From Tachypleus tridentatus (lineage: Eukaryota > Arthropoda > Merostomata > Xiphosura > Limulidae): a stretch of DNA of 64,000 nt. The stretch is from the NCBI RefSeq assembly GCF_004210375.1, contig NC_134830.1, forward strand, positions 10,478,001-10,542,000. The letters run 5' to 3'. Positions 8,018-64,000 of the stretch are shown here, piece by piece (position 1 is the stretch's first letter; every line of letters begins with the position of its first letter). The notes beneath the pieces are model-generated. The model made no database searches. It worked only from the letters and a program-made list of their open reading frames with translations, and had not been told where the DNA came from. The position numbers and the translations under genes were made by a program.

Positions 8018-8712
8018 TATATATAATACTTCATATAATGCAAAACACATCTCTTCGTAGGAAACAAGTTTTACACTTACACCCTTGGGCAAAAACTTGT
8101 TTTGCTAAATGCAGACTTCCGATGATGTCGACAATTTGGCTTCCGTATCTATCCAAATTTCAGTCTTTGCTCTCATTAATCTCATCATCATTAAAGTAGA
8201 AATGGTCAGAATTATCCATCTTGTTTGTGTGTGTTTTCTTATAGCAAAGCCACATCTGGCTATCTGCTGAGCCCACCGAGGGGAATCGAATCCCTGATTT
8301 TAGCGTTATAAATCCGTAGACTTACCGCTGTACTAGCGGGGGTTACCCATCTTGTTCTTTGATGATGTCAAATGATTCCTCTTAGCTTCTTCACTGTAAC
8401 TCAGCAGAATTGATATGTATGTTGTGAGATGATATTATTCAGATGTGAGAATCAATTAGAAAAAAATAAAGCAAGAAAGAACAGAGTGCCAGGTGCAGAC
8501 TTATCTCCATCTTTGCTATATCAATTTCATCATATTTGACAATCTTTGCCTTAATAATAAGATTTGATTGTACCAGATCTAGGTATTCATCTTCCAAACC
8601 TGATACAGAAAATTCGATACGTCCTTTGCCAGTTTATGATGATAGAGGATAACATTTTGTCCTTTGGCTTTCCTTGAATCACTTTTTACATGGGGAGGAA
8701 AGAAAATAAGTC
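8018..8712 (-). pseudogene. F54H12.2-like protein, decayed and SINE-interrupted
   Basis: Read on the - strand, several short collinear peptides match my memory of the F54H12.2 family of transposon- or virus-derived proteins: DLFSFPP near 8690-8712, IEFSVSGLEDEYLDL followed by IKAKIV near 8530-8620, LLSYSEEAKRNHLTSS near 8350-8400, VDIIGSLHL near 8110-8140, and VKLVSYEEMCFALYE to about 8022. The frame changes at least three times and stops are present, so no product is made. A SINE-B copy (8225-8344) splits it. Only the N-terminal part of the family is present. The neighbour on the coding-strand upstream side is the VTLPSN-type protein, consistent with a single mobile element. Function in the family is not established; a virion-like structural role is inference. 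Confidence 0.68.
8225..8344 (-). repeat. SINE-B copy inserted in the F54H12.2-like pseudogene
   Basis: This reverse copy of the short tRNA-derived SINE-B shows the tail (TTTTCTTATAGCAAAGCC), CTGCTGAGCCCACCGAGGGG, the B-box equivalent GAATCGAATCCC and the head CCGCTGTACTAGCGGG. The sequence CCATCTTGTT occurs on both sides (about 8216 and 8348), a likely target-site duplication. The pseudogene reads on either side of it. Confidence 0.88.
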
Positions 8713-9171
8713 TATCTAGAATTTAGTAAACCGACAAGAATTTTATGTTGTTTTAGGGACATGAGTACTTGTGCAAAAAATTCGAGTCAGTATTATTCAT
8801 CTCTTGATTTTAGTTCATTTGAATACGTGTTTGTCCAGCTTTTTTATTAGGTAGAGCCTAATGATTAACATGTTAAGCCAAGTTCCAAGCTCCTTGTATT
8901 ACTCATCAGCTTTCCAGTATCAACAAGAGATTTTCATTGTATGATATCTGATGATAAATGTATGCCTGACTGAACAGTTTCTTTTCCTAAGGCGAATGCA
9001 CCTTTCTTCAGAAAAGGTAAAACTGAACAAAACAAATAACTCTCCTAATCATGACCCCCTGGCCATTGATTTCTAGCTAATTTAGGTAACCGATTTCCCA
9101 ATTATTAATCATAATATGTGTGACAGATAACTGGTTTATGATAATAAGGCACTCTTATGATGTCACAGATG

Positions 9172-9902
9172 ACAAAAATGAAGTGTTGTGATATCTTTCC
9201 CTTGTTCAAATGAAATAGGCCACATCAGTCATCCTTTATATTATCTTTAATATCCTTTATCTGAGTAGTCTGAAACCTTTGTTTAGAAATAGGTCTGTAA
9301 TGAGGATTTATAAATGTTTCAGTGATGATGTCTTCATTATGACTTTTAATTTGAATGATTCGCAATAGTGGTACGTGTTCATCCCCACAATACCAAGTTC
9401 AACAATATCTTTCTAAACACAGAATGAATAAAATCTACCAAGAATGTTAACGGTACTTGGAACTATAGTGGGGTCAATATCATATGAGTAATATCATATC
9501 TAAGTAATACTGATAATGCAGGATCAAATAATATAGAGACTTCACCATTCACATTCATACTTACCTTTTGAGGGAATAAATCATAAGTAAACACAGGTTC
9601 TTTGTTAGATGTATGAAGTGATGCTTCTATTTGGTTTGAGATTCTAAATACATCTTCAGACTCTTTTTAGTGTCCTAAATATGAATGACTTTGTCGAGAA
9701 CTTAAGTGCCAGGTTGGTAGGATATCCATAGTATGCCTTTAGGTACATTACGCCAGCTATGTTTTGTGAAGTTTAGCTGAGGTCACTTCCTACAAAACGT
9801 CGAGGTTGGTAGATTTAAGAACATGAGTGTAATAGTTTATCACAATGATGTTAGGAGAATAGTTCATAGAATTATTACTAGGTAACGTCACATACACTTG
9901 GC
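9172..9902 (-). pseudogene. VTLPSN-type protein of the Polinton-like element, decayed
   Basis: On the - strand the frame opens with QVYVTLPSNN at about 9873-9902. It continues through recognisable coding blocks, with stops and frame changes between them: KHSWRNVPKG near 9735, NQIEASLHTSNK then FTYDLFPQKVS near 9560-9640, ILFDPALSVLL near 9500-9535, a clean block HNEDIITETFINPHYRPISK near 9280-9350, then a terminal FEQGKDITTLHF near 9175-9210. I remember this family as a companion of F54H12.2-like proteins in arthropod and cnidarian genomes. No established biochemical function is claimed. It lies about 460 bp upstream, in coding sense, of the F54H12.2-like fragment. Confidence 0.66.
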
Positions 9903-9920
9903 CTTACCAAATAACGAATA

Positions 9921-9980
9921 CAGGGATGGCTTTTGGGTAAGGCAAGCGAGGTAGGTGCCTTGGGACTCGCGCCTTTTTGT
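9921..9980 (+). mobile_element. Possible hAT terminal fragment
   Basis: A short GC-richer stretch begins CAGGGATGGC and contains GGTAAGGCAAGCGAGGTAGG. It resembles the outer end of hAT-type elements, which start with CAGGG. No transposase or matching opposite end was found close by, so this is a solo end at best. Confidence 0.35.
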
Positions 9981-10445
9981 TTCTTAATTTTATATTTTGT
10001 TAGAGAGTATTAGTAGCTCATAGTTACATTAGTTACCAAAGGATTCACTCACGATTATGTTTACATGCTACTCATTAGTCAATTTATTATATTCAACTGA
10101 AATAAATATTATTTATAATTTCTGTTTTGGCCTGACCTTCAACTGGGCCTCGCACTTGCTAAATTTTTATTGTATTGAATAAATACTTCAATACTATTTT
10201 ATTAAAAATCAACCTATTTAGATACTGAATATCAGTGTCATTTAACAGATGCATTATGGTCTTTATGTTCCATTAACATCCATTCCAACAGCTTCTTGTG
10301 GATTATTCATATATGATAATCATTCTGCAAATTGTTTCCATCTTGTAAAATTAAATTTTTTCATTTTCATAGTATATCATTGATTACGTCGATTAGTTTA
10401 CTTTTCAGAATGTATCTTCCACTGACCGCTAACTCTCCTCAATCG

Positions 10446-10725
10446 GGGCCTGGCATGGCCAGGTGGGTTAAGGCGTGAGACTCGTAAACCGAGGGTCGCG
10501 GGTTCGCGACCGAGTCGCGCCAAACATGCTCGCCCTCCCAGCCGTGGGGGCGTTATAATGTTACGGTCAATCCCACTATTCGTTGGTAAAAGAGTAGCCC
10601 AAGAGTTGGCGGTGGGTGGTGATGACTAGCTGCCTTCCCTCTAGTCTTACACTGCTAAATTAGGGACGGCTAGCACAGATATCCCTCGAGTTGCTTTGTG
10701 CGAAATTCCAAAACAAACAAACAAA
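10446..10725 (+). repeat. SINE-A copy, full length
   Basis: A well-preserved copy: head GGCATGGCCAGGTGGGTTAA, CTCGTAAA at the anticodon-loop equivalent, B-box GGTTCGCGACC, intact core and tail, then (AAAC)n. It lies between two pieces of the Polinton-like element and so is younger than it. Confidence 0.95.
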
Positions 10726-10784
10726 CTCTCCTCAATCATTCCTCCGTTAGATCCCCTTTAGAACATATCAAGTTTAATATGATT

Positions 10785-11066
10785 TCAGTTTCTCTTATAT
10801 ATTTTTGAAGAATGTTGTCGGTAATCTCTAAATGTTCTTAAGTTAGTGATTCTAACTTTAATTTGTTCCATTGTTTGCGAATGAAAGTTCTTATGAAATT
10901 GTTGAAACTGATTTACTATTTTTACTTTATCAGCTGAGAGTAATGTATGATTTTGTACGACACAATTTATATCTTTAGCTATAAAGTTTAATACTTTATG
11001 TACTGGTTCTTCATGAACTTTAGGTTGATAAAGTGCGTGTAACAGTTTTTCAGAAACGAAAATCAA
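10785..11066 (-). CDS. Unrecognised 93-codon ORF in the Polinton-like block
   Basis: This is the longest uninterrupted - strand frame of the block. The product would be polar and basic, with a repetitive Q/H/K composition (FQQFHKNFHSQTMEQ) and a C-terminal SSKIYKRN. No domain, signal peptide or membrane segment is recognisable. It sits between the small hydrophobic-tailed protein relic (11.1-11.36 kb) and the VTLPSN-type relic, on the same strand. It may be a remnant of another gene of the element or a chance ORF. Confidence 0.3.
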   Translation of the reverse strand: MIFVSEKLLHALYQPKVHEEPVHKVLNFIAKDINCVVQNHTLLSADKVKIVNQFQQFHKNFHSQTMEQIKVRITNLRTFRDYRQHSSKIYKRN

Positions 11067-11109
11067 TAGTCTTGTGTTCTATCTTTTTATAGTTCCAACA
11101 GTTCTACCA

Positions 11110-11360
11110 ATAGGCCAAACCACCAATTATTAAAGTATTGGTGCCACGAGTAATGGCAGAAACTTTTCTTTCTGCGTTATTAAATTTATTTTCTGTTTAA
11201 CTGATGTTTTCTTGACAACCAACTCTCTCAATAATGACTAGTATCATTAAAGTTTCTTTTGCATGTTTTTGTGATAGTAATGTTATCCTTTAATACATAT
11301 AAGTGCATTCACAAATGCACAAGATAATATAATTTTTCATTCCAACAATTATATCTTTAA
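11110..11360 (-). pseudogene. Small basic protein with hydrophobic C-terminus, decayed
   Basis: On the - strand there are two conserved-looking blocks. LCICEC near 11300-11335 is followed, after a frame change, by the basic stretch LVVKKTSVKQKINLI and then KFLPLLVAPIL, ending near 11120. I recall short proteins of this plan (ICEC box, Lys/Arg-rich middle, hydrophobic LLP..L tail) beside F54H12.2-like genes in other invertebrates. The frame is broken, so this is a relic. Function unknown; the match is from memory, not a search. Confidence 0.5.
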
Positions 11361-12689
11361 TCTGTTTACATACAGTTTTACTTAATGCACAGAGCAAATA
11401 TTGATGCTGTTTAATTCTGTGTGTCATGATGAATAGATAAAAAATATTGTAATTACAAAATATGAAAAACTATTTATTTACACAAACATTAATTTATATA
11501 TAAAACTTATTATTTACAAACAACTCTGGCAAAACACTGACTTTCTGACACTATAATGATAATAGTTTTATTATGAAATGAACAAGGTTGCATACATTTA
11601 AGTAACTGATTAACTCTGGGGTATCCAAGCAATTACAGGTTATAGCAGAGAATTTAGAAAATACTTCTAACAGCTGTTTCATTTCTTTCCTTTGAAGAAA
11701 AAAAATGGTAAAGTTCTGAAATGGTAAAGTTCTGCCTTAGCAAACTAACTACATTCTATTGATGTCATACTTATTACACTGATCCGTATCTGAAGGATAT
11801 CGCTCGAAAACAGTGATTTAAACAAAGACACTCCTGTATATCCAATGGTTAAACATGTGAATACTAATACTTTAATAACATAAGATCTGCTCTTCAGATA
11901 AAATTCTTCTAGATCTATCATGGCTGTTGTCAAGTCTGTTAATAAGTATTTATATAAAACACAGACTTGTTTTACTTTGTGAACTATTTAACTACTATTA
12001 TACATTCCTATACCTGAGATAGATTCTACACAACATAAAACACTGATAAACTGAAACAGTGAATTCCACATATAAACGCTTGAGATAGTTATTTATTTTC
12101 TCCACTTTCACCCGTAAGATTATGAATAATAAAAATGTTTGCTTTAGGAGGTTGTAAATATTCACAACTATTTCCAGGTACAAATGACTAAATAAAGTTT
12201 GGACTATTTTGCATTAAACTAGTATACGATGGTTGATATTTACCATAAACCCACACTATATTTTCAGACATAGATTTCACAATATAACAATAAATTAATA
12301 ATACAATGCTAACAAATGAATATTTACCTTTTCACGTTGGACCTGACATTAAGCAAATAAAAGAATGTTGTTATCAATAATTCATCTTAAATTATAATGG
12401 AGCTAAGAAACATTTTATGATATCAATTACATGAGACCGACTCCTCACGATGGAAAATAAAAGAAATATAAATAAATATAGATAAGTAAATTACTTAATA
12501 ACTATATGGAAGGGTATCAAAATTAGATAAAATGAATCTTTTCATATATAGTGTATGATAAATTTTAGTTTCGAATTTGTCAAACATTGCGTTTTCAAAT
12601 CCTGACAAATTTTCCTATCGCGAGATATTGTGATAGTTTGCTGAAAAGGATTAAAAATGTGAAATAAAGCTTTTTATTGTAGAAAAGTT
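11361..12689. other. Interior of the Polinton-like block with no recognised gene
   Basis: AT-rich, with two short - strand ORFs (11745-11933 and 11998-12183) lacking recognisable motifs. Decayed genes of the element could be hidden here. I could not support any call. Confidence 0.35.
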
Positions 12690-12940
12690 TACTTTAAGAT
12701 AAAATTTAGAGTAAGCTCCCTAATGTTGCAACAGGACTTTCCATTATTTTATAAGTATCCACAATTCTTAGGAACTTACAGACTCAGGATATGATGCAAT
12801 GTTCAGTTTGTAGGTAAATTCTCCGAGATAATCACCTGGAGAAAGATCATTAGTTTTATGTGAAATGTACACAGTACCATGTCATATGACAAAACAGACA
12901 AATCCAACGTCTCTATTGTACGCTACAATCTAAGATGATT

Positions 12941-13069
12941 GTTTTTGTTTGTTTGAAGTTAAGCACAAAGCTAAACAATAAGCTATCTGTACTCTGATCA
13001 CCATGGATATCGAAATCCAGATTTTAGCGTTGTAAGTCCGCAGACATACCGTTGTGAATACCAGCAGAG
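12941..13069 (-). repeat. SINE-C copy inside the DNA polymerase pseudogene
   Basis: This reverse copy of the third tRNA-derived SINE shows AAGCACAAAGCTAAACAATA, AGCTATCTGT, GATATCGAAATCC, GCGTTGTAAGTCCGCAGAC and CATACCG. It interrupts the polymerase between motif B and the GDYLGEF block. Confidence 0.78.
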
Positions 13070-13483
13070 AAATGACTGATACTCGTGCTTGTGTCTCCAG
13101 TAAAAATAACTTTATCATTAACTTATGCAACATTTGTTACAATACTGATGTTGTACTTCATTAAAAGACCAATACCCTTCAACAGATACCACAATGTTAA
13201 ATTGTGGTCTATCCTCGAATGTACCTCAACGGCCCCAGAAAGAGTTAAGATAAAGCTATGTGACAGACCTTTTACCTGGATTAAAATCTATGCTTTCAGA
13301 GATCAGTCTCGTTACTTTCTTTTCAGCGTAATGTACAATAAATTCCTGTTTCGTTTCTGACGTAACACAGAGAGAGGACCATTCTGAACATTTCTGTTTT
13401 TAAAAGTGTGCCTATGCAGTGTTTAGAAAGTTGGATCTTTCTGGGAAATGGTAAACCTCATATTTTTAAAACATGGTCGCGAC

Positions 13484-13571
13484 GATAAACTGTTTTGGGC
13501 ACCTCTTAAGAAAGCTCTCTCATTATTGATAAACTGTTTTGGGCACCTCTTAAGAAAGCTCTCTCATTATT
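13484..13571. repeat. 44-bp tandem duplication within the polymerase relic
   Basis: The segment starting GATAAACTGTTTTGGGCACC occurs twice head to tail (13484-13527 and 13528-13571) with no differences. On the - strand it duplicates the NNERAFLRGAQNS peptide, with a frame shift because 44 is not a multiple of 3. Confidence 0.93.
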
Positions 13572-14015
13572 GAAATGATGATGTGGAGGTGGTAATCATG
13601 AATCAACACATTTGTTACAGAGAAGGAAAGTTCATCTACTGTTACTCTTTTTACAATGGATCTAGGATTTTTCACTTAATGGAACTGAAATACTTATGTA
13701 GATCTGACACATTTGTTATTATGATTATTAAACGACCAATTAGATGTTACGTTTTGTCAGTGGATGTAGAAATTCAAGGTCAAGATACTTGATCTTTTAA
13801 TCCGTCTTCACATCACATTGAAGTACTGACTCTTCCGCTGTGTAAACTGTATATCTATGTGAGGAACTAATGTATGGGCCTTAATAAATCTAATTAAATT
13901 TGTATTGGTGGAATTCATGCACTTAAAACTCGTCTTTCCCAAAATGAAATTATTCTATTTGCTAAAACTTCTAGTTTATGTTACCTGTATAATGTATAAT
14001 TTCTAATAAATCACA

Positions 14016-14900
14016 GGGGTAGACTTAGAACAATGTCCTTTGTGTCAGGGTCAAGCCCGCAGAGGAGATTTCTCAACTGGAGGATCAGTACCCTGACCCG
14101 TCCGAAATATTTATTACGAATCAAAAAACGTAAACATAAAATTTCAGTACCCTGATTCTTCCGAAAAAATAACAACATATATTTACTGTCAAGAAGTAAA
14201 AACCGTAAACATAAATTTTTCGTTGCAGCTAGCGTTTTTACTTTCACACATATAACATAAAATCAAATAAAATTCAAATAAACAATAAGTTTTCACGATT
14301 CTTCTGATGAGCAAAAGCGTTGATCATCTCTTACATTTTATTTTCCATCATAAAATGTGTTATTTCCATTTCAATATTCAAAATGGCAACGTGAGACAGT
14401 CTTTCTTGTTCAATAGTACAACGTAAGTAAGTTTTGATTCTACTTGAAGCAGAGAATGATCTTTCAACAGAACAGGATGTGACTGGAACAGTGCTAAATA
14501 TTTGCACCAACTGAGGCTAAGTTGGAAGGAGTTGAGAGATGCCATTATCATAAATCCATTTTGAAAAATTATATCTAGAAGATAAATGTGGATTTTGTTT
14601 TTCTTGATCGAGAAGACCAACCATAATCTTTCTTTCTGAAAATAACTGATTCTAATTCAGTCCATAAAGGTTACAAAGTAATGAAACATCATCTGTAACA
14701 TCTTCTTCTTCTGGTTGCATTATGACAGATGAGAGACCGAAAAGAATATTTTGATCATTTTCATCGAAACGAGACTGAATTTGCTCTTTAAAAGTTTGAA
14801 CAGTGAGAAAGAAGATGGCGTATCTTGTACAACAGGTTGGGCTTTCAAAATCTGCAGTAACAGATGCAAATCCAGCTTCTAAGGCACGTTCTGTGAGTAT
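14016..14900 (-). pseudogene. hAT transposase C-terminal relic
   Basis: On the - strand the C-terminal dimerisation domain of a hAT transposase is readable at about 14350-14510: VPVTSCSVERSFSASSRIK, then TYLRCTIEQERLSHVAILNI. The preceding 14520-14890 carries acidic linker sequence (FDENDQNILFGLSS, MQPEEEDVTDDVSLLCNLYG). At least one frame change separates the blocks. At 14016 the + strand reads CAGGGGTAGAC, compatible with the outer end of a hAT element, so the element probably runs rightwards from there. Its other end was not found and may be lost at the SINE-A/Tc1 junction near 15070. Two diverged copies of a roughly 60-bp sequence with GTACCCTGA lie at about 14087-14213. Confidence 0.72.
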
Positions 14901-15126: not shown

Positions 15127-16509
15127 AGTCAAAAGATTAAGACCATACTGAAACGAAGCGTTAATCGGAAAACACGTAACGAAATTTACTCATTTGTGTT
15201 CAAGCATTAGCGTTGTCAACATCTCCTGTGTTACATTGGGTAAAAACATGGCAAAGGCTAAAATGTTGACAGAGTTTGAACGTCAGAGAATTGTCGAGCT
15301 GCAAAAGCTAGGTCTCTCTCAAAGTGCCATCTCTGGTGAGATTGGACGTAGTAAAACTGCTGTTGCAAATTTCTTATATGACCCTGAGGGATACGAAACA
15401 GAATTTCAAGTGGCCCGCCCAAGAAAATTTCGCCGGCGTTGAGCAGGAGGATTCGACATGTTGTCCAGCAAGGCACCAGTCGATTGTCGAACCAGATTAA
15501 GGCCCTTACGGACACAGAATGCAGCTCAAGAACAATAAGACAGCATTTACGAGAGAAAGGCTTTAAAAACCGTAAACGTCTTCAAAGGCCACGCCTCCTT
15601 CCACATCACGAAACACCTCGTTTAAACTTTGTTGAGAAGCACCAAACATGGGACGTAGAAAAGTGGACGAAGGTTTTGTTCTCTGATGAGAAAAAACATT
15701 AGCCTGGATGGTCCAAATGGCTTCCAACGTTACTGGCACGATAAGGATGTCCCACTGGAGACATTTTCTACACAACACAGTGGAGGAGATTCTATCATGA
15801 TCTGGGTGCTTTCTCCTTCCATAGAACAATGGAGCTTCAGGTTATACAGGGGCGTCAAACAGCGGCTAGCTACATTGGCATGCTGGAGAGAGCATCTTTA
15901 TCGACTAAAGGCCCTCGCTTGTAATGGAAATGACTGGATCTTTCAGCAGGACAACGCTACAATCCACAATGCCCGCAGGACAAAGGACTTTTTCATGGCG
16001 AATAACGTGATTCTTTTGGACCATCCAGTGTGTTCGCCCGAACTGAACCCCATTGAAAATGTTTGGGGATTGGTGGCAAGGAAAGTCTATAGAAATGGAC
16101 GTCAATTCCAAACAGTGCATGATCTTCGTGAAGCCATCTTCACCACTTGGAATAACATTCCAGCCAGCCTTCTGCAAACGCTTATATCGACCATGCCAAA
16201 GCGAATGTTTGAAGTTATTCTCAATGACGGCTGTGCAACTCACTACTGAGACATCTTGTTGGGCATTTCCTACCCTGTTTAGGACTTTTTTTGGTATGGT
16301 CTTAAACGTTTGACCAGCTCGTATTAAGGCGAATTTTATAGTGTTTACATTTACCCTATTAAATGCTAAACAAGTTTTTTAATTTTATTTTCTCTTTTCC
16401 TATTTTCATCTTTCGAAGTTCCACTCAAATAAGTGGTTGAGTCTGACAACGCAAAATGCATATTTTTTCTTTATGTTCATTGGCCTTAAGATTTTGATCA
16501 GCAGTGTAT
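15125..16509 (+). mobile_element. Tc1-like DNA transposon, degraded
   Basis: Element of about 1.38 kb. The right end, read inward on the - strand, begins TACACTGCTGATCAAAATCT. The left end has the related but diverged GTCAAAAGATTAAGACC at 15128-15144. These are Tc1-type terminal inverted repeats; a TA target is expected. Between them lies a DD34E transposase gene with two frameshifts. The right end is better preserved than the left, so the element is unlikely to be mobile. Confidence 0.85.
15249..16248 (+). pseudogene. Tc1/Tc3-type DD34E transposase with two frameshifts
   Basis: It starts at the ATG at 15249 (MAKAKMLTEFERQ). An N-terminal helix-turn-helix follows (residues about 8-45, RIVELQKLGLSQSAISGEIG), then a second HTH-like region to about residue 110. 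A frame change near 15436 moves the reading to 15439-15702, and another near 15693 moves it back. The first catalytic Asp lies in VLFSDEKK (about 15674-15697). The second is in FQQDNA (codon 15950-15952) and the Glu is in LNPIEN (codon 16055-16057), exactly 34 residues apart. The stop is at 16246-16248. Length and motifs fit Tc1-family transposases that cut and paste DNA at TA sites. The frameshifts make it inactive. Confidence 0.9.
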
Positions 16510-18220: not shown

Positions 18221-19540
18221 AAGAGCAATAGAAATACAAAGTATTACTGTCAACAAATGAATTAGAATAATAAACAGTCAGGAAATATTTTACAGTTTTC
18301 CTGATCAAACATAAGATTTCTGTATTTTTCTCTTTGATCTCATGGATAAATAATAAATTTATGTTGATTTGGTTCCATTTTTATATTAAGCTGGTGATTT
18401 GTGACTCGGTCAGAAATAAGTATAGATATAACAATTCTTGGAAAATTTAAATGCGCATGTGCTTTTTCGAAAATTGTGCAATATGTACATACAGTGTATA
18501 TACATGTACATATACATTAAAATCTTTAATATTTTAGAATAATTTATAGTATTATAGTGTTTTATAGTTGTTTACATAAACCATAAATGAACAAGGTTTA
18601 CGAATTTGCTTTCTTTTAAATTGGAAGCACATTTAAGTAAAGTTATTTTGTTGATGAAATCCAAGTGAGAACTGGGATTTCACAGTTCTGATATATTTAC
18701 ATAGATCATATTAATTTAATTTGGGTTATTTCATTTTGCTCAGTTTAACATACAAGAGTGAGTTCAAGGATCTAACAGCAGTGTTTTTCTGTTAAATGTT
18801 TCATTAACTCTTGCTGGTTCTAAAATTTCCATTCAAAGATTTAAAGTGTACAGGATCGCTTTCCCATTGTACTCTACTGTTGTACATTGTGTTACTAAAA
18901 CGCTGTTAAATGCAAGTCATTATACATTAGTTTTGTATAGATTTGTAGTTTGTCTCCATTCTTGTGATCCAACTGTTGCAACTCACTGTGAAATATACAC
19001 CAAAGCCCACGATACGAGAATCTCAAATGGGCCAGATGATCTCATGGTTGTAGGTGTAAAGTACAGAAAGGAAAAGTGAAAAAAAAAAAAACACACCATT
19101 TGGCACATACAGAATACCATCAATACTCATTGTTTTGGGTGCATTTACTGTTGGAATATAAGCCAGGAAATGAGGGAAAGTAGTTAGTTTTTAAGAGATG
19201 CATTTTCTTGTATTTGATATTTTCACTGTTGCTGCAAAATATCCTACAGATATCTCTATAACATCGCTTCATGATACTGAGAAACAAGAATCATCTGGGA
19301 AACCACCAAACCTTACAAAGTTCTCCTTCTGTGAATAAATCTCAGCAGTGAATGAAGCCTGTGTGACAGAGGTCACATATCAGAGTCTCTCTATCACAAG
19401 CTGTTTTGCCATCATGCAAGATGACAAGAATTTATTGTTGCTGAGAATGGTGCCTGTTGAGCTAGAGATCCACTCCAAGAATAGAAGAACTCAGCTGTCC
19501 CATCAGTGAGAACCTGGAGTATATACAGTTCCACCTCTGG
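18221..19540. other. Intergenic AT-rich DNA
   Basis: A 77-codon open stretch at 18846-19079 has no motif and no splice context. Nothing else was recognised. Confidence 0.4.
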
Positions 19541-19647: not shown

Positions 19648-22313
19648 TTCCACCTCAGTAATATGTATTACTATTAGACAACACAGAATATGCCCCTCTT
19701 CCCTGTGAAGTGTTATATAAGAGACAAATGGTTGATAGGAGCCCCTTTACCTTCTGGTAAAACAAAAACTTTCATTTGAAGCACAAGCTGTTCCAAGATA
19801 AGAGATGAGTTGCTTCTAAAACTCCAAGTTTTATAGAGCTTAAAATCTCAAAATGTTTCCCATTAAGTCAGACTGTCCAGGCTCAGGTGGACCTCGAATT
19901 CACTGAAGGAATTAATGGAACTTGTGAGTCTATGGTGGAGGCAAAGCTAATCTTTCTCCTAGTGGTTGAGAGAAAACCTTTTGGTTGCTAGGTTGCACTC
20001 TATAAGTATCCAGCTAGGTCATGGTTTAGAATGAGCAGATCTTCTAATTGGTTGCAGAAACTGGGTGTGTAGAGCTATTTACTTATTTTGACCAAGTGGT
20101 TGATGGAACAGATTTTTGGCTGATGTGATTGGTTCTGATTAGTAGGATGAAGTAACAAACCAGCCTTTATGGTCATTGGGTAAAAACAAAACAAAAAACA
20201 ATTGATAGGGTGTCATGAGCCCTTGATTTCCAAATGCCTTGCAATTTTCTGTGTATATATTACAACCCTTGTCAGAGTACCAACAGTTGATCAGAACAAA
20301 TATTATGGTTCTCTAGAGAGAAGTCTGTACTGTTGGTGTAATGCTTTCATCTTAAGGCACAGCTTGTGTTTCCGTCGAATGTGTTGATATGCAAGATAAG
20401 GCAGTATGAATACATTTAGTATTGGCTCTCAAATGGTAGCACAGATAAACTCTGCCAGAAAGTGTTTCTACAAGCCAGAAAATTCTGTTGGTCTCATTAC
20501 TCACAGATGGCAGCACATTACCAGACTATAACTGACATAATAAAACTTAAGAAAATAGCCCAAATTATTGTTGTGGTAATATTGTACATGCCTGAAGTGA
20601 TCTGTCAGAAGCTACTGAACTACACGGTTATGTGTTTTAGTAAAATTCTTGCATGTATGAAAAGATGCATTTACAATTACGTACATTTGAAATATGGTAC
20701 ACATGCATCATTTATAACTGATGTCCAACAGAAAACTAATGATAGAGGTCAATCTATGCTGTATAATATGAGAGTTTGATCGAAAATGATGTATGAAGTT
20801 AATTGTGAATACTGATCTAATATGCATTAATCAAAGAAGCAGGGAGACAGTTAGTTTTGTTAGTGTAAGGAAGAAATAGTTGAGCTGTGACACTGAAATA
20901 CCCTGAAGGTGTTGAATTATGCTGAAAGGGATGAAACTGATATACTTACCTGATACACGTATACGTAACCATATTCTGAGCCGTATTTCGCAATTCTTGG
21001 TGGGTTGTATTTTTAGTTTTAAGGTCTAAACATGAATTGTAAAATGAAATTTTCTGTGAAGAATAAAACTTTAAGAGTGTGTGTCTTGGTATGATGAATT
21101 TAAACTTAGAGAAATCCAATGTTTTATTCGTTATGTGAAAACATTTTCATCAGCAGATATTTGTTACAGTTTATACATGTATCCTTAGTGCAATTATTTT
21201 TTTAAAGTTGTCATGAACTGGTGCCCACTGAGAATGAAGACCTTTCTGAGAAAGATTATTATAAATTCATAAATCCATAACCACTGTGAGAGCAGGTGGT
21301 TTACAGTCAATGAATGTTTCCTGGTCTGATCGACCCAAATACAAATTACTTGTTCGTTGTTCTTTTTCTAGTAAGCCGGGTTTCAATTTGAAATTGACTT
21401 GTAGCTACAGTTGTTTTGTTTAAAATATTACTGCATTTTCATCATGTCTCAAGTTTTTCAGGTTTAAAGGGTTCAGTTTCTTGCCGTTGAGTTGTAGTTC
21501 TTTTTTTAAGGGTTGCGTCGTCCATGTTATATGTAATTATTCTTAGGAACATATCACAATTTAACCTTACAACACAGGTGTAAAACTTAATGCAATATAA
21601 TCTCGTGCACAGTGATACTATCTGCTAGAAAGAATAAAAATATCAAGGTATATAAAATGAAACAGCTTTGGTTCTAGGCCAAGTGTTTATGCCACATTTC
21701 ATAGAAACAAATCAAATAATTTTTTTTTATATTAATAAAGGTGGTGAAAAAAAAGGCATGGCAGGCTTATATGTCATACTTTTTACCTCATCTCTCATTC
21801 AGGCTTGACGTCAAACCACCAATTGAAAATAAACTTCAAACCACTATTCTTTTAGAAATGACGTTAGAAACGTAATGACAAATCCTTTAGTAATAAAGTG
21901 AAATATTATCAATTTTAAGCTCATGATATACAAGCAACAATATCCATTCACAACGACAGGAAAAGTTAAAGTTAGTTTATCAATTTATATTATTTCATGG
22001 ACTTTAAAAAGGTTAATTGTGTTGCTCCCTTGGTTTCTCTCAGAACGGAAGCTTTGAGCTACTTAAGCCACCTACTGCAAAAAGTAATTGTTGAGCATTT
22101 CAGTCATGCTAAGAACCATTCAACAATAACATAAGCTAATTTCATGTGTTTTTTTCTTGAAGTTACGTCACATTTTGCCACGTGAAGGATAGTGTGATTA
22201 ATTCATAAAAATTTTAGTGTACAATATTCTACTTACAAAATACAATTAGATATCACCATTATTCCTTGTTGTTCTCCTGTCATTTCAAAAATGAATGTTG
22301 AGGTTTGCTTGCA
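19648..22313. other. Long intergenic stretch without a supported gene
   Basis: A 105-codon + strand ORF at 20462-20779 has no recognisable domain, ordinary composition, and no flanking exons I can support. Part of 19200-20200 is less AT-rich and could be old repeat DNA. No repeat family was identified. Confidence 0.4.
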
Positions 22314-22771
22314 TGTGCATCTTTTCAAACACAGCACAGGAAGTAGCTGCTGTAATTGATGTGCATCTTTTCAAACACAGCACAGGAAGTAGCTGCTGTA
22401 ATTGATGTGCATCTTTTCAAACACAGCACAGGAAGTAGCTGCTGTAATTGATGTGCATCTTTTCAAACACAGCACAGGAAGTAGCTGCTGTAATTGATGT
22501 GCATCTTTTCAAACACAGCACAGGAAGTAGCTGCTGTAATTGATGTGCATTTTCAAACACAGCACAGGAAGTAGCTGCTGTAATTGATGTGCATCTTTTC
22601 AAACACAGCACAGGAAGTAGCTGCTGTAATTGATGTGCATCTTTTCAAACACAGCACAGGAAGTAGCTGCTGTAATTGATGTGCATCTTTTCAAACACAG
22701 CACAGGAAGTAGCTGCTGTAATTGATGTGCATCTTTTCAAACACAGCACAGGAAGTAGCTGCTGTAATTGA
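22314..22771. repeat. Minisatellite, 10 copies of a 46-bp unit
   Basis: The unit begins TGTGCATCTTTTCAAACACA and ends in GCTGTAATTGA. Ten head-to-tail copies span 458 bp. The only difference is a 2-bp deletion in one copy near 22540. The short - strand ORFs through it are products of the repeat. Confidence 0.97.
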
Positions 22772-27769: not shown

Positions 27770-30045
27770 ATGACAAGCAAGCGTCTGAAACTTTCCGATA
27801 TTAGACAGTTCTACAAGCCAGTTACTGATACTACAAGTGACAATACAGATGTAGATAATCCAACAACATCAAGCAAAGGAATAGAAACTTGTTATACAGA
27901 GGAAATACCATGTTCATCAGAGGACGAGTCTGAAAATGCTTGTGTAACTATTGCACATCATGAACCACCAGATAGTTGTGAAACAAGTTTGTGCAGTAAT
28001 GAAAAATCTGACACTCCACAGATACAGTGTGGAAAGTCATATCATCCAGATGCACAACTAATACTACGACAGAAAGCAAAATCTCAAAATATCAACTTCC
28101 AGGGCAAGTGGTTTGGTGAGTTCCCATGGCTGCACTTCGACAATCAGACTTAAAAAGACATATGCTTTCATTGTGCCAAGGCGGAAAATAGAGGCCTTTT
28201 TACAGGGAAATTGGAGAGGCCAATGGAGTATATCTTCATATCTACCGGTTTTTGCAACTGGAAAAAGGCAAAACAGAAATTCAACGAACACCAATCCTCT
28301 TCTCAGCACAGATTCGCTATATTTCCAGAAGGTTCACTTGATGTAACTCCAGTGACTGTCCAACTACATGGTGGAAAAAAGAAGCAGCAGGAAGAATGCA
28401 AAAGAAGTCCAGCCAAAATATTAAGAAGTTTACGTTTCTTATTGCGTCAAGGTTTAGCATTACGTGGACATACTGATACGGAGGGGAACTTCCTGCAGTT
28501 AATGAAGCTCCTGGAAGAGGAAGATCCTGAGTTGACGGCCTACTTGTTAAAGGAAACCACATTCACATCACCCCAGGCTCAGAATGAAATAATGGAGATG
28601 TTCAGCCATCAAATATTGAGGAGCATAGCACACGAAGTGCAGCAAAGTAAAATCTTTGCATTAATGGTTGATGGCACTCAAGATGTTACAGGTGCCGAAC
28701 AGGAAGCAATATGTGTACGATACATAGATGAGAACCTTGACATCCATGAGACATTTCTTGGTTTGTACAGTGTTTCCAACTGGTGAAACAATATCCTCGA
28801 CTATACTTGATGTGCTGACTAGACTCAATTTACCACTGTCAGGATTAAGAGCACAAACTTATGATGGAGCCGCTAACATGAGTGGTGCGTACAGAGGATG
28901 TCAGGCAAAAAAAGAGAATCAACCGTCAGCTTTGTTTTGTCACCGCGGAGCACACAAAGCTAATTTAATAATGCAACATCCAGTTGAAACTTTTAAATGT
29001 GTTCGAGATTCTATCCAGTGGGTACATGAACTTGGTGTCTTGCTTCAGAGGTCAGGCAAATACAAGACAATCTTTGAAAATATTGTATCATCAGACAGTC
29101 ACAATGGTCCAGTTACATACATCCGCCCACTGTGTCCAACACGCTGGTTGTGCCGCCTATTTGCAATTACATGTGCTAATGATCACTACAGTGACGTTGT
29201 TGATTCTTTGTCTGAATTAGCAAATGAAAAATCAGATGTAGCAGTGAAAGCACGAGGTCTGCTGGACAGATTTAACAAAGGAAAGACAGTTTTAGGATTA
29301 TTACTGGCTCAGCATCCATTAGCTGCATCAGAGGAACTAAACCGTACATTCCAAGCAAAATCAGCGACAGTATCTGGCATGATTGAGGCATCTGAAATGA
29401 CAGTTGAGCAATTGCGGGTATTGCGAACAGAGGAAAATTACAACAAGATATTTGATGAAGCTGAGAGAAAGGTGACTTCCCTAGATCTGGTGCCTATTGA
29501 ACTATCACGCATTCGCAGACCCCCCAGAAGGATCACAGGTGATGGCTCAGCACACATTCTGCAACAGCTAGAGATTACTACAGAAGCCAATATTTTGAAT
29601 TTGTGGACACAGTCATGGAAAATCTGACCACTGGATTCAATGCAGACATGCTGACGACAATAGCTTGAGGCAATATCTGGCACTTGAGAACATGATCACA
29701 TCTAGCAAGATTGACAACTCGGTTATAAACTTCTATCCAGAAATCTCTGCACAACGGCTCGAGTTTCAGTCGCCCATGTTCAAAAGAACAACAAAAGCAG
29801 TATCTCTGAAAGGTGCAAAGGATGCTTACTGTAAAATGCATGAAACAAGCCAGCAGATGTTTAGTAAAGTGTTTCTTCTCATGAAAATTTTGCTTGTACA
29901 TCCAGTATCCAGCTGCGAATGTGAACGCAGTTTTTCTGCATTAAGACGGTTGAAGACGTTTTTAAGGTCAACTATGTATCAGTGCCGCCTCAACCATGTG
30001 GCAGTTTGTCACACTCACAAAGATGAGTGCAATGAAAGTTATTAG
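27770..30045 (+). pseudogene. ZMYM1/TTF-type hAT transposase-like gene, near full length, broken
   Basis: This is a transposase-derived gene of the DUF4371/hATC type, annotated in animals as zinc finger MYM-type protein 1-like. The start is ATG 27770 (MTSKRLKLSDIRQFYKP). It has an acidic Ser-rich linker, then a TTF-type zinc-finger region (FPWLHFDNQT, CFHCAK, GFCNWKKA..FNEH). DUF4371 follows (GLALRGHTD, FALMVDGTQD), then the YDGAANMSG block, CPTRWLCR, and the C-terminal hATC domain with HPVSSCECERSFSALRRLK. It is interrupted by an in-frame TAA (28151-28153), a frameshift near 28775, another near 29565, and a stop plus frame change near 29663. Stretches between lesions are long and clean, so decay is recent. 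A hAT-like 3' end lies at about 30321-30353. Confidence 0.9.
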
Positions 30046-30489: not shown

Positions 30490-30769
30490 TGTTTGTTTGT
30501 TTGTTTTGGAATTTCGCACAAAGCTACTCGAGGGCTATCTGTGCTAGCCGTCCCTAATTTAGCAGTGTAAGACTAGAGGGAAGGCAGCTAGTCATCACCA
30601 CCCACCGCCAACTCTTGGGCTACTCTTTTACCAACGAATAGTGGGATTGACCGTCACATTATACACCCCCACGGCTGACAGGGCGAGCATGTTTAGCGCG
30701 ACGCGGGCGCGAACCCGCGACCCTCGGATTACGAGTCGCACGCCTTACGCGCTTGGCCATGCCAGGCCT
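30490..30769 (-). repeat. SINE-A copy, full length
   Basis: Reverse copy with a (GTTT)n start, well-conserved tail and core, and head ending GCTTGGCCATGCCAGGCC on the + strand. Confidence 0.95.
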
Positions 30770-62500: not shown

Positions 62501-63789
62501 AGGAATAAATTAATCTGCTCCTTGACTGTGTTGAGAGTTTAAAGGTTATTGGTTTCAATTTTAATTGTTGACTTAAGGAAAGAAATGGAGTGAAAGTGTG
62601 GTATGCAGGCATTTTCTACCAACTTCAGTTTATAGTAATTCTTAAAATGTTTCATTTGAGTAATATGAAGTTTTAATATAAATACATGGTCCAGCAAGTT
62701 GTTGAAATTACTTTGTTTCTTTGTTCCTTATGGTCAGTAACATGTTTTCTATCTAAGAAGATATTGCAGTAACATATAACATTCAGGTTGAAAGGGTTAA
62801 CTCTGTAATATTCTTTGCTGGTGGAGTTAGCATTCTATAAATGTATTACCTGTCCCTTGTTGTGACAGAAGAAAGGTCACAAGGTTATGCTTTTAACTAA
62901 ACAAAGAAATGAAGCTTACCTCTTCAGGCACAATTTCTTGATTTGATTTTTCTAGATCATTACTTTGAGATTGTTTTATTTTGGTGCAAGTTGGTCTTGA
63001 GAAAAAGAAAGCTTTGGACCTAGACACATACAAGCAACTGTAGTTTCATGTGTGTAAATACATATAATACATATGCTGCATTTTTTGTTTTTTTTTATGA
63101 TAAAGAGTGTATTCATTTCTGTCAGAATTATAGTCTTGTTATTTCATGCAATATAAGAAAACTGATTTATCAGATGTATAATTACTCCTTATATCCTGAA
63201 TGAATCTTCCATTTTAATGGATCTGTCTTTTTATTTTTGTTGTGAAATAAACTTTTTATTTGAAAATACCAGAAAACAACAGTTGTGCTATAATGATTAC
63301 AAAGTTTAAAAGGTAAAAAAGTAAAAACAAAACCCATACAGTTTTAAAAATTACTCTGTTTTATTTAGCAGTAAAAAAAATTGAAAAATCACATATAAAT
63401 ATTGACATTTCACTGAGAAAACTTTGTTCTCTTTGGAGATGAAGGATAATATTATGTCCACTTTAAAGATGAAAAATTTACTAAGGTTATAAAAGCTTTG
63501 AAATGTGTAAAGAACTTGAAGCATGGAACTATTAATATGATTACTTTTTCTAGACATGCAGATAGCCTAGTCCAGTTAGATAATGACCTCAGGATTCCAC
63601 CTAAAGGCTGGAAATGTGAGAGATGTGACAAGACTGATAATTTGTGGCTCAACCTTACAGATGGCAAAATACTTTGTGGTAGGAGATTTTTTGATGGAAG
63701 TGGTGGTAATAATCATGCTGTTGATCATTTCAAAGAAACAGGTTATCCTCTGGCAGTAAAACTTGGAACTATTACACCATCAGGTGGAG
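32432..63789 (+). CDS. USP5: Ubiquitin carboxyl-terminal hydrolase 5/13-like, N-terminal six coding exons
   Basis: USP5 (isopeptidase T) disassembles unanchored polyubiquitin chains from the free end. Six exons join in compatible phase: 32432-32527, 38651-38776, 39069-39126, 53374-53495, 58658-58764 and 63554-63789. They give 745 nt, about 248 residues. Landmarks are [12 protein letters not shown], the cryptic N-terminal ZnF-UBP ([20 protein letters not shown]), [23 protein letters not shown], and the ubiquitin-tail-binding ZnF-UBP ([31 protein letters not shown]). C-x2-C, the later C and H are zinc ligands; W of LWLNL and R of CGRR match tail-contact residues in human USP5. Exon order and residue spacing follow the vertebrate protein closely. 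The catalytic Cys/His boxes and UBA domains must lie beyond 64000. USP5 and USP13 cannot be told apart from this part alone. Confidence 0.93.
32528..33650. other. USP5-like intron 1, 5' part
   Basis: AT-rich intron DNA without a recognised repeat or coding segment. Confidence 0.45.
33651..34112 (-). pseudogene. CR1-like LINE reverse transcriptase, C-terminal fragment
   Basis: On the - strand it reads [16 protein letters not shown] near 34065-34112, [28 protein letters not shown] with a stop inside, then [20 protein letters not shown] near 33760. These are the end of the RT and the C-terminal tail typical of CR1-type non-LTR elements. The part joining it to the RT block at 34905-35180 is missing. 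Confidence 0.75.
34113..34891 (-). pseudogene. Mariner transposon relic lacking its catalytic core
   Basis: It begins at 34891 with a terminal-repeat-like sequence (on the - strand ACAAGGTTGTCCAGAAATAA) next to a TA. The N-terminal DNA-binding part is readable with frame changes: GDKSLKDHE near 34560, [20 protein letters not shown] near 34430-34490, LTEAQQNR near 34360. The frame then jumps to the C-terminal [30 protein letters not shown] near 34230-34340, ending at [10 protein letters not shown] near 34130. The region carrying the first two catalytic Asp residues is deleted. The D of [11 protein letters not shown] is retained. It is non-autonomous. Confidence 0.85.
34905..35200 (-). pseudogene. 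CR1-like LINE reverse transcriptase, palm fragment
   Basis: On the - strand there is a block [23 protein letters not shown] at about 34910-34990. It matches the RT motif normally reading NVTSGVPQGSVLGPLLF. Degraded upstream coding sequence extends to about 35200. The mariner relic begins where the next RT motif would follow, so the mariner inserted into this LINE. Confidence 0.72.
35201..38650. other. USP5-like intron 1, 3' part
   Basis: AT-rich, with TA tracts (about 35709-35730 and 36108-36117), a duplicated hairpin segment at 36303-36450, and several chance ORFs. No coding exon was found. Confidence 0.45.
36303..36450. repeat. 65-bp direct duplication containing a perfect hairpin
   Basis: A segment starting GAGAAAACCACTAGGGG occurs at 36303-36368 and again at 36386-36450 with four small differences. 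Between the copies, CATGTCATGTATT (36349-36361) and its exact inverse (36367-36379) flank a 5-nt loop. Confidence 0.93.
38651..38776 (+). CDS. USP5: USP5-like coding exon 2
   Basis: 126 nt, phase 0 at both ends. The acceptor follows TTTATACTTAG and the donor is GTGAGT. It encodes the core of the cryptic ZnF-UBP ([20 protein letters not shown], then [14 protein letters not shown]), the best-conserved part of the N-terminus. Confidence 0.95.
39069..39126 (+). CDS. USP5: USP5-like coding exon 3
   Basis: 58 nt between TTTTTTCTTAAG and the strong donor GTAAGT. It encodes a short linker ending KKPTRLAI plus the first base of the next Gly codon (phase 1). The preceding intron is only 292 bp. Confidence 0.93.
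39400..41947. repeat. Minisatellite, 43 copies of a 59-bp unit, in USP5-like intron 3
   Basis: The unit contains TAGTAAATACATTGATAATC, AGTAATGTGGTTCACTACCT and ATTGCAGTGCTTGTTTTCC. The array is 2548 bp. Removing one 10-bp insertion (near 40755-40785) and one extra C (near 40861) leaves 2537, exactly 43 x 59. All other copies look identical, implying very recent expansion or strong homogenisation. It starts 273 bp after the exon 3 donor. Confidence 0.97.
41948..42763. other. USP5-like intron 3, no feature
   Basis: AT-rich. A 69-codon ORF at 42444-42653 has no motif. No repeat was recognised. Confidence 0.4.
42764..42981 (+). repeat. 109-bp tandem duplication including a SINE-A 5' head
   Basis: The unit from ACAAAGGGTTCTGCTGTTCA to GACACTTGACTTGTCTTA is at 42764-42872 and repeats from 42873. 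The second copy continues into a full SINE-A. Confidence 0.93.
42946..43207 (+). repeat. SINE-A copy
   Basis: Head TTGCCATCTGGTGGTTAAGA, CTTGTAATC, B-box GGTTCGAATTGC, core and tail recognisable, ending GCATGAAATTCAAACC. Confidence 0.92.
43208..44899. other. USP5-like intron 3, no supported feature
   Basis: Short ORFs on both strands (for example 43158-43448 and 43837-44133) overlap repeats or lack motifs. No gene was recognised. Confidence 0.4.
44900..46417. repeat. Highly diverged tandem repeat (roughly 60-80 bp period)
   Basis: A phrase like GTTCATTACTCCTTA, followed about 10-20 bp later by a CATGTACAC-like phrase and then TAATGTTT, recurs many times (for example near 45530, 45630, 45680, 45960, 46150, 46310). 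Spacing is irregular. It looks like an old, eroded satellite, interrupted by a SINE-B at 45335-45450. Period and copy number were not computed. Confidence 0.55.
45335..45450 (+). repeat. SINE-B copy, full length
   Basis: GCCCCCTGCTAGTACAGCGG head, B-box GGGGTTCGAGTCCCC, CTCAGCAGATATCCCGATGT, GGCTTTGCTATAAG and a final A-tract. Confidence 0.93.
46445..47892 (+). pseudogene. Jockey-like LINE, copy 1: RNase H domain, C-terminus and 3' UTR
   Basis: A 5'-truncated non-LTR retrotransposon. The first RNase H Asp is in [12 protein letters not shown] (about 46471-46506). The Glu is in [16 protein letters not shown] (frame 46579), the next Asp in [16 protein letters not shown], and the last in [18 protein letters not shown]. 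The C-terminal zinc-knuckle-like [17 protein letters not shown] is near 47080-47140. Stops and frame changes break it. The 3' UTR (47340-47892) holds two diverged copies of a roughly 170-bp module and ends with CAGATAGCC..GCTTTGTG followed by AACC-type repeats. The RT domain is missing here. Confidence 0.85.
47893..50010 (+). pseudogene. Jockey-like LINE, copy 2: RT C-terminus, RNase H and 3' UTR
   Basis: A second 5'-truncated copy begins where copy 1 ends. It is longer upstream: [17 protein letters not shown] near 48120-48170 and [13 protein letters not shown] near 48190-48230 from the end of the RT, then [14 protein letters not shown] near 48330, [15 protein letters not shown] near 48760-48800 (the first RNase H motif, altered) and SSLLALELF near 48950. 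It is more decayed than copy 1. The tail 49957-50010 again has CAGATAGCC..GCTTTGTGC and AACC-type repeats. Confidence 0.82.
50011..50580. other. Pyrimidine-rich stretch, no gene
   Basis: C/T-rich on the + strand (TTCCTTTCCC and similar), so all + frames are open for about 100 codons with no motif. It could be the decayed gag or leader of a retroelement. No call. Confidence 0.35.
50581..50762 (+). repeat. SINE-A copy, 3'-truncated
   Basis: Head AACCAGCATGGCGAGGTGGT, CTCGTAATA, B-box GGTCGAATCCCC and core to CTAGCTGCCTTCC. The tail is absent. Confidence 0.92.
50763..51791. other. USP5-like intron 3, no supported feature
   Basis: No recognisable gene or repeat was found. Confidence 0.35.
51792..52369. 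mobile_element. Non-autonomous hAT-like element
   Basis: The left end CAGAGATGTCAACCATTACG is matched by the inverse of the right end (CAGAGATGCCAACTATTTCA). The octamer TGCTTCTG lies immediately before the left end and overlaps the right end at 52368-52375, consistent with an 8-bp hAT target duplication if the right end is set 2 bp inward. The interior is mostly non-coding. A 35-codon ORF from 52244 ([20 protein letters not shown]) may be the remnant of a transposase N-terminus. Confidence 0.7.
52370..53373. other. USP5-like intron 3, 3' end
   Basis: AT-rich. The only supported element is the acceptor of exon 4 at its right end. Confidence 0.4.
53374..53495 (+). CDS. USP5: USP5-like coding exon 4
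   Basis: 122 nt after TGTTTGTTTGCAG, donor GTATGT. It completes the split Gly codon and encodes [16 protein letters not shown], then [18 protein letters not shown]. It is separated from exon 3 by a 14247-bp intron loaded with repeats. Confidence 0.93.
53934..54120 (+). repeat. SINE-A copy, 5'- and 3'-truncated
   Basis: It starts in the anticodon-stem equivalent (CCAAGGGTCAAGAGTTCGAA), keeps the core, and ends at TAGGGAAGACTAG. Confidence 0.9.
54121..55437. other. USP5-like intron 4, no feature
   Basis: AT-rich intron DNA. A C-tract lies at about 55248-55256. No repeat or gene was recognised. Confidence 0.4.
55438..55702 (+). repeat. SINE-A copy, diverged
   Basis: TGACGTGGCTAGGTGGTTAG head, a degraded B-box, core with AGTTGGCAGTGGGTGGTGAT, a tail ending CCTAAAATTCAAAACA. 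Confidence 0.87.
55703..57327. other. USP5-like intron 4, no feature
   Basis: AT-rich. ORFs at 56388-56594 and 56849-57079 are composed of common AT-rich codons without motifs. Confidence 0.4.
57328..57545 (+). repeat. SINE-A copy, 5'-truncated
   Basis: It starts within the head-core junction (CATCGAACATGGTCACTG), with core and tail intact and ending in an A-rich (AAAC)n. Confidence 0.9.
57546..58657. other. USP5-like intron 4, 3' end
   Basis: AT-rich with no feature other than the exon 5 acceptor. Confidence 0.4.
58658..58764 (+). CDS. USP5: USP5-like coding exon 5
   Basis: 107 nt after CATTTCATTTAAAG, donor GTAGGA. It encodes [20 protein letters not shown] and then [12 protein letters not shown], with the Lys codon split (phase 2). 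The WDGE..VSK block matches human USP5 just before its ZnF-UBP. Confidence 0.9.
58765..59190. other. USP5-like intron 5, 5' end
   Basis: AT-rich with no feature recognised. Confidence 0.35.
59191..59300 (+). repeat. SINE-C copy, diverged
   Basis: + strand copy: CAGCAATAAATTTGAGATTC, CAACACTAAAATATGGGGTT, GATGGGCACAGTATACATAG, CCCATTGTGCAGCT. It matches the inverse of the copies at 3965 and 12941. Confidence 0.55.
59301..60739. other. USP5-like intron 5; 60000-60740 may be the 5' part of the DIRS-like relic
   Basis: 59301-59990 is AT-rich without features. From about 60030 the composition becomes C/T-richer, with open + frames (60035-60328) but no motif I recognise. It continues into the DIRS-like pol region, so it may be that element's first ORF. 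Confidence 0.35.
60740..62190 (+). pseudogene. DIRS-like (tyrosine-recombinase) retrotransposon pol relic
   Basis: RT and RNase H blocks of a DIRS-type polyprotein are readable with many stops. A Pro/Ser/Leu-rich entry is near 60835-60900. The RT palm has [13 protein letters not shown], then [11 protein letters not shown] and [12 protein letters not shown], at 61141-61275. A catalytic-box equivalent YMNN (normally Y-L/M-DD) is near 61330, and LGVHF..SII near 61470-61500. The RNase H-like block [20 protein letters not shown] is near 61877-61934, followed by degraded sequence to about 62190. The catalytic Asp pair is lost. No tyrosine recombinase or terminal repeats were seen. It lies in the sense orientation in intron 5. 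Confidence 0.75.
62191..63553. other. USP5-like intron 5, 3' end
   Basis: AT-rich with no recognised repeat or coding segment. It ends at the exon 6 acceptor. Confidence 0.4.
63554..63789 (+). CDS. USP5: USP5-like coding exon 6 (ZnF-UBP domain)
   Basis: It starts after ACTTTTTCTAG and completes the split Lys codon before HADSLVQL. It encodes nearly the whole ubiquitin C-terminus-binding zinc finger: [40 protein letters not shown], then [16 protein letters not shown]. The donor could be GTATGA after 63789 or GTGGAG after 63783. Both leave phase 1, so the protein would differ by two residues. The rest of the gene lies outside the window. Confidence 0.95.
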
Positions 63790-64000
63790 GTATGATTAAA
63801 ATAATTGAATTTCTTTTATTTATAGTTCTCTAAAATGTCATGAAATTGTGAAAGGAAAAACTGTAAAATTCATGAATATTTCATTATGTGTATGATTAAA
63901 AATTGATTTGTAATAATTTAAAATCTTCATTAAAATGTCTCTAGAAAAGTAAACAATTGTGTATATTTTATTTATATTGTTTTTTGACATTGTAAATGTT
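63790..64000. other. USP5-like intron 6, 5' end
   Basis: AT-rich intron start running off the right edge of the window. No feature seen. Confidence 0.5.

Follow-up and report, generated by a model that had tools for sequence, protein, structure and literature searches.

The window analysed here is a stretch of 64,000 nucleotides from Tachypleus tridentatus (G000:C6:10478001-10542000, within an assembly of 2,167,478,450 bases in 205 contigs), and its minus strand holds what is almost certainly a truncated and long-dead copy of an adintovirus-like element of Polinton/Maverick type. An initial annotation had described four collinear same-strand relics at this place, namely a protein-primed family B DNA polymerase (polB), a small protein with an ICEC motif, a protein starting with VTLPSN and a protein likened to F54H12.2 of C. 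elegans (F54H12.2 type, or F54 type, below), and had assigned the polymerase and the F54H12.2-type proteins to one element. Nucleotide alignment to other copies puts the limits of the recognisable relic at about 8028 and about 13996, and the relic is both longer and richer than first described, with polB extended to about 13996 and further conserved stretches at 11987-12160, 10729-11255, 10176-10444 and 8920-9041. Its features, some of them short interspersed nuclear elements (SINEs) that have landed in it, are given below from the polymerase end downwards; L030 is a virus record of the IMG/VR database and the other L numbers are further loci of the same genome, with positions within a locus after the colon.

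13169..13996, minus strand: middle part of the polB relic, with the LNSFWGR block (L030 match; nucleotide alignment to L070; L105 frames matching 13169-13249 and 13311-13388).
13484..13573, no strand assigned: exact 44-base tandem duplication, two copies, inside the polB relic (Tandem Repeats Finder, 100% match).
12940..13080, no strand assigned: third, SINE-like stretch inside the polB relic (by eye only, the translation resembling the SINE at 8222-8342; absent from the window's list of repeat copies).
12755..12952, minus strand: polB relic with the GDYLGEFT and PKNCGY blocks (L105:3461-3679 matches 12801-12875 and 12881-12952, E 0.003).
11987..12160, minus strand: conserved stretch behind the polB blocks, either the end of polB or a separate small gene (L105:3841-4007, 68% nucleotide identity; L105:3773-4072, tblastn E 3.7e-6).
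11120..11490, minus strand: relic of the small ICEC protein (L105:4982-5143, E 4.6e-10; L105:5204-5293, E 3.7e-6; nucleotide alignments to L105 and L073).
10729..11255, minus strand: further conserved coding relic, with an open piece at 10788-11078 (L105:5457-5543, E 2.6e-6; nucleotide alignments to L106, L060, L100 and L104).
10447..10726, plus strand: SINE inserted in the relic (up to 94% identity to other copies in the window, e.g. 30491-30768).
10176..10444, minus strand: conserved relic continued past the SINE (nucleotide alignments to L104, at 70%, L059 and L064).
9466..9917, minus strand: first parts of the VTLPSN protein relic, with VTLPSN at 9874-9891 and an open piece at 9466-9666 (piece 9793-9903 in 16 of 63 loci and piece 9466-9666 in 25 of 63, E <= 0.05).
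9228..9398, minus strand: later part of the VTLPSN protein, at the penton position (94 genome matches, its own included).
8920..9041, minus strand: relic of an intermediate gene between the VTLPSN and F54-type genes, at the PW position (piece 8937-9044 in 21 of 63 loci at E <= 0.05; L105:8425-8496, E 3.5e-5).
8361..8780, minus strand: first part of the F54H12.2-type protein relic, with an open piece at 8442-8633 (33 genome matches, its own included; nucleotide alignments).
8222..8342, no strand assigned: a second type of SINE, interrupting the F54-type relic (84-91% identity to other copies in the window).
8028..8211, minus strand: later part of the F54H12.2-type relic, where the recognisable element ends on its low side (alignment by nucleotide to L101, L103 and L093; piece 8034-8159 in 6 of 63 loci, E <= 0.05).

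The six peptides that the initial annotation had named were all located on the minus strand in the order given there, LNSFWGR at 13229-13249, KYEVYHFPE at 13439-13465, GDYLGEFT at 12813-12836, PKNCGY at 12755-12772, ICEC at 11305-11316 and VTLPSN at 9874-9891. It is apparent that the copy has decayed a long way, with the peptides interrupted by stops and frame changes so that reading from stop to stop gives short open pieces only, and with the relic further broken by the 44-base duplication and the SINEs at 8222-8342 and 10447-10726. Both ends of the copy are truncated, and nothing in it is functional now. As the relic is on average only 66.4% identical to other copies (range 63-72%, over 53 alignments of at least 300 bases to 48 loci), the element family is old. 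No intact copy was seen among the matches listed in the genome, since the longest open frames at these matches are 179 residues (penton-position), 152 (F54-type) and 145 (PF03175) and the best PF03175 match of the genome search has an E of 8.8e-7.

The identity of the polymerase comes from relatives of the window sequence. A polB piece of L030 (IMGVR_UViG_3300049043_000152, a virus record of 38,252 bases, the piece lying at 2035-2145) that matches PF03175 at E 6.3e-9 matches the window best at 13184-13282, with a tblastn E of 0.003 and the next place at 1.8, and an ungapped 20-residue score of 58 there with the next best at 24. By eye, the fetched part of L030 looks chimeric, its content being mixed and linker-like peptides recurring in it. 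Scans of IMG/VR with pieces and motif patterns gave a true polB piece in L030 only, GTDB contigs held no relative and phage records no useful one. Within the genome, window 13237-13455 and 13662-13996 align by nucleotide to L070, a PF03175 locus, and the polB region of L105 aligns to the window in order, including the LNSFWG-type block and the stretch with the GDYLGEFT block. The first part of PF03175, which is present in L070-L074, was not recognised in the window. The window segment is tied to the polymerase family indirectly, through L030, L070 and L105, and in L105 PF03175 is matched at E 2.3e-9.

Relatives of the relic are numerous in the genome. A search with the penton-position piece 9228-9398, in which 150 of 158 candidates were scored, gave 93 matching places besides its own, and the F54-type piece 8442-8633 gave 32 besides its own. 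Twenty open relic pieces, a SINE-derived piece having been removed beforehand, were then searched by tblastn in 63 loci of 3 kb fetched from this genome, among which there are four overlapping pairs (L043/L099, L045/L095, L048/L081 and L051/L080). These loci had been chosen for a match to the penton-position piece, the F54-type piece or PF03175 and those matches are present by construction; the same does not hold for the other pieces, nor for order and strand. At E <= 1e-3 there were 152 piece-locus pairs, compared with 0 in 20 rounds of shuffled pieces, and at E <= 0.05 there were 192 compared with 2.1 per shuffled round. Matches at E <= 0.05 were found in 60 of the 63 loci, 47 of them with at least two pieces collinear on one strand and nine with a single piece. 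It could be argued that the peptides are chance products of AT-rich noncoding DNA, given that the pieces are short and that no relevant curated profile matches them directly, yet chance would have to account for the 93 and 32 homologous places elsewhere, for 152 pairs where shuffling gives none and for a conserved order; the shuffled-piece comparison speaks against it, and its probability is very small.

The window sequence by itself is insufficient to settle whether the polymerase and the F54H12.2-type proteins share an element, and the argument is carried by sister copies. The locus L105 (G000:C2:73758001-73768000) contains polB and has all its recognised pieces on one strand in the order of the window: polB, the conserved piece, the ICEC protein, the 10788-11078-type piece, an integrase-like piece with a chromodomain, the VTLPSN protein, the penton-position piece, the intermediate gene and the F54 type. 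Matches of window pieces to L105 have E values of 3.7e-4 for the conserved piece behind polB, 4.6e-10 and 3.7e-6 for the ICEC protein, 2.6e-6 for the 10788-11078 piece, 0.001 for the VTLPSN protein, 4.2e-10 for the penton-position piece and 3.5e-5 for the intermediate gene. The F54 piece of the window itself goes unmatched in L105 at E <= 1; F54-type frames from other copies match L105 at 8594-9171, with a best E of 3e-14, and a second locus, L106, at 9611-9811 with an E of 6.8e-15. In the opposite direction the open pieces of L105 have matches in the window that keep their order, descending from 13388 to 9237, SINE matches being set aside. In L106 (C2:33070001-33080000) polB, VTLPSN, the penton-position piece and the F54 type all share a strand, with polB about 7.7 kb before the penton-position piece; a long insertion lies between polB and the capsid-position genes there (L106:4556-6256, plus strand), its frames by eye like a hAT transposase. 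In L083 and L103 polB-type and F54-type sequence is likewise found on the same strand.

These copies bear directly on whether two unrelated insertions, one a polB-bearing element and the other a distinct element or gene family that contains the VTLPSN and F54-type proteins, have come to adjoin one another. Most capsid-position copies are known from 3-kb loci only and there are five PF03175 matches in the genome, so that the shared element is directly seen in few places, which is what two insertions might produce. Against this, L105, L106, L083 and L103 each have polB-type and F54-type sequence on the same strand, and the intervening genes follow the same order in L105 and the window; on this order and shared strand the two-insertion explanation is rejected, its remaining probability being very small. 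The proposition that polB and the F54H12.2-type genes never occur in the same element, when put to other copies, was contradicted by the same four loci; the collinearity first noticed in the window is recovered in L105, and the polymerase and F54H12.2-type proteins are to be taken as parts of one element.

The roles of the accompanying genes are less direct. Besides its protein-primed polB, a Polinton is marked by a retrovirus-like (rve) integrase, a single-jelly-roll penton protein, a double-jelly-roll major capsid protein, an adenovirus-like protease, an FtsK-like packaging ATPase and terminal inverted repeats with a target duplication. From their order, set beside that of Polintons, the VTLPSN protein would correspond to PX, the F54 type to PY and the gene between them to PW; a virion core protein was considered as a possible identity for the ICEC protein. 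Gene order is what points to possible virion roles for the companions, both structure predictions being of low confidence. Pieces resembling an integrase were noticed by eye in L105, L109 and other loci; they have relatives in many loci and no Pfam or PDB match. Chromodomain relatives were found in 22 of 66 further loci (among which L043/L099 and L045/L095 overlap), and the chromodomain of L105 itself (PF00385, E 5.9e-8) lies just before VTLPSN, which places in L105 the adintovirus mark of a chromodomain at the integrase position, the integrase core there being putative. A protease-like piece was recognised by eye at L108:1002-1166, in the stretch after the F54 type, and its relatives occur in 11 of the 63 loci (E <= 0.01); in the window no convincing protease-like piece was found, the best having an E of 0.018 at 18346-18423.

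A number of observations weigh against reading the relic as a Polinton-type element. PF03175 does not list the window among its five genome matches, and the window pieces that were tested singly against Pfam, PHROGs and PDB gave no relevant match. In the frames scanned there was no Pfam match to an integrase core, no Pfam match was found for the protease, and the window yielded no integrase-like or chromodomain relic. The Pfam scan of open frames gave no ATPase, no genome-wide search for one having been made. The structure model of the F54 type, from a natural frame of 116 residues, is helical and of low confidence (pLDDT 63.7, pTM 0.33, these being the predictor's local and global confidence scores), and that of the penton-position protein, also from a natural frame, has four strands at similarly low confidence (pLDDT 53.7, pTM 0.39). 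The helical model would, if anything, speak against a jelly roll, and is too poor to count. Four of the 60 loci with matches (L054, L086, L098 and L100) are at odds with the order or strand. In L086 and L098 the ICEC-type pieces lie behind the F54-type piece and in L100 on the opposite strand, unlike the window; these three are either rearranged copies or another lineage with a different gene order.

If the named families are a guide, a living element of this kind would copy its linear DNA with its own protein-primed polymerase and insert by way of an integrase ending in a chromodomain. It would carry capsid-type genes (penton, intermediate gene and major capsid protein) and a protease, and might form virions; stops, frame changes, losses and SINE insertions would then have accumulated as an integrated copy decayed. 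The lifestyle could also have been that of a purely intracellular transposon with degenerate capsid-like genes, rather than that of an integrated virus able to form virions. The presence of dozens of copies dispersed through a single genome is as expected of a transposon, whereas capsid-position genes are present in many copies and the core genes of cyprinid fish Mavericks are under strong purifying selection (PMC8097293; this and the papers below are cited for the part of their text available), and overall a purely intracellular life seems possible and somewhat unlikely.

One dead copy has been multiplied recently. Three loci, L109 (G000:C19:6079001-6087000), L110 and L111 (C19 and C13), have 7.5-7.8 kb in common at 99.5-99.7% identity, with collinear Polinton relics inside, and as the identity reaches the ends of the fetched sequence the unit is at least 7.5 kb long. 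By score, range and one shared in-frame TAA, 13 of the 94 penton-position matches look like this unit, nine of the 13 on contig C19, and the five of them that were compared by sequence are 97.6-99.7% identical. L068 and L069 also belong with the amplified unit, L068 with an inverted part of 0.3 kb. An old dead Polinton copy has here been carried along in the recent amplification of a larger unit, the mechanism being duplication or transposition. That the unit was moved in trans by the enzymes of some element with the dead copy as cargo, rather than by segmental duplication, is doubtful; if true, it would mean that dead Polintons are still spreading in the host genome.

The surroundings of the relic contain other repeats and probable host genes. 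The stretch above 14.0 kb was left out of the element because of a hAT relic at 14382-14510 (minus strand), which matches the window's own hAT frame 29599-30042 at E 3e-10. This frame carries Dimer_Tnp_hAT and is part of the hAT transposon relics at 28154-30042 (plus strand). Probable Tc1-like transposase frames lie at 15152-16246 (plus strand), with HTH_Tnp_Tc3_2 and DDE_3 of Pfam among the scanned frames and the place judged by eye, and a tandem array of a 46-base unit in 10 copies, 99% matching, at 22313-22771. A ubiquitin-hydrolase zinc finger frame at 63450-63830 (plus strand; zf-UBP, E 1.1e-15) is probably a host-gene exon, as are probably two frames with immunoglobulin domains at L038:5169-5889 (minus strand), about 4-5 kb before the window. 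Scans of the window with Rfam and for tRNA were empty.

An animal genome thereby gains a degraded family of Polinton/adintovirus-like elements, represented at dozens of matching places, and the collinear copies tie orphan-type proteins (ICEC, VTLPSN and F54H12.2 type) to a polB-bearing element, which should aid annotators who meet them alone. A search of the paper library for 'F54H12.2' found no paper, and one for Polinton with horseshoe crab or Limulus found nothing, papers pairing 'horseshoe crab' and 'Maverick' being in existence.

That polB and capsid genes go together in one element is already known biology: Polintons encode a major capsid protein and a penton alongside polB (PMC4028283; PMC6431247). 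Like Polintons and Mavericks, the family described here has a protein-primed polB together with genes at the penton and major capsid positions, in the order penton, one gene, major capsid protein (PMC4028283; PMC8097293); unlike them, the window copy is broken and truncated at both ends. In vertebrate Mavericks one module comprises the integrase, minor capsid protein, PW, major capsid protein and protease (PMC8097293), with polB on the opposite strand to this capsid module according to the same source, whereas L105 and the window have one shared strand. Adintoviruses are likened to the family by the chromodomain near the integrase position, which is stated for the adintovirus integrase (PMC11071296) and seen as PF00385 in L105, and differ from the window in that no chromodomain was found there. 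Adintoviruses are further marked by an OTU-like domain at the N terminus of polB and by a Hexon recognisable by BLASTp; in the window no polB start was identified. Adintovirus-like integrations in Ixodes tick genomes are a further parallel, the same virus group having integrated many times in an arthropod genome (PMC10675110), although all 453 tick elements were derived from integrase sequences according to that account, and here polB and capsid-position genes are found in order. That order, of integrase-like piece and chromodomain, VTLPSN protein, one gene, F54 type and protease-like piece, agrees with the published capsid module (PMC8097293; PMC4028283).

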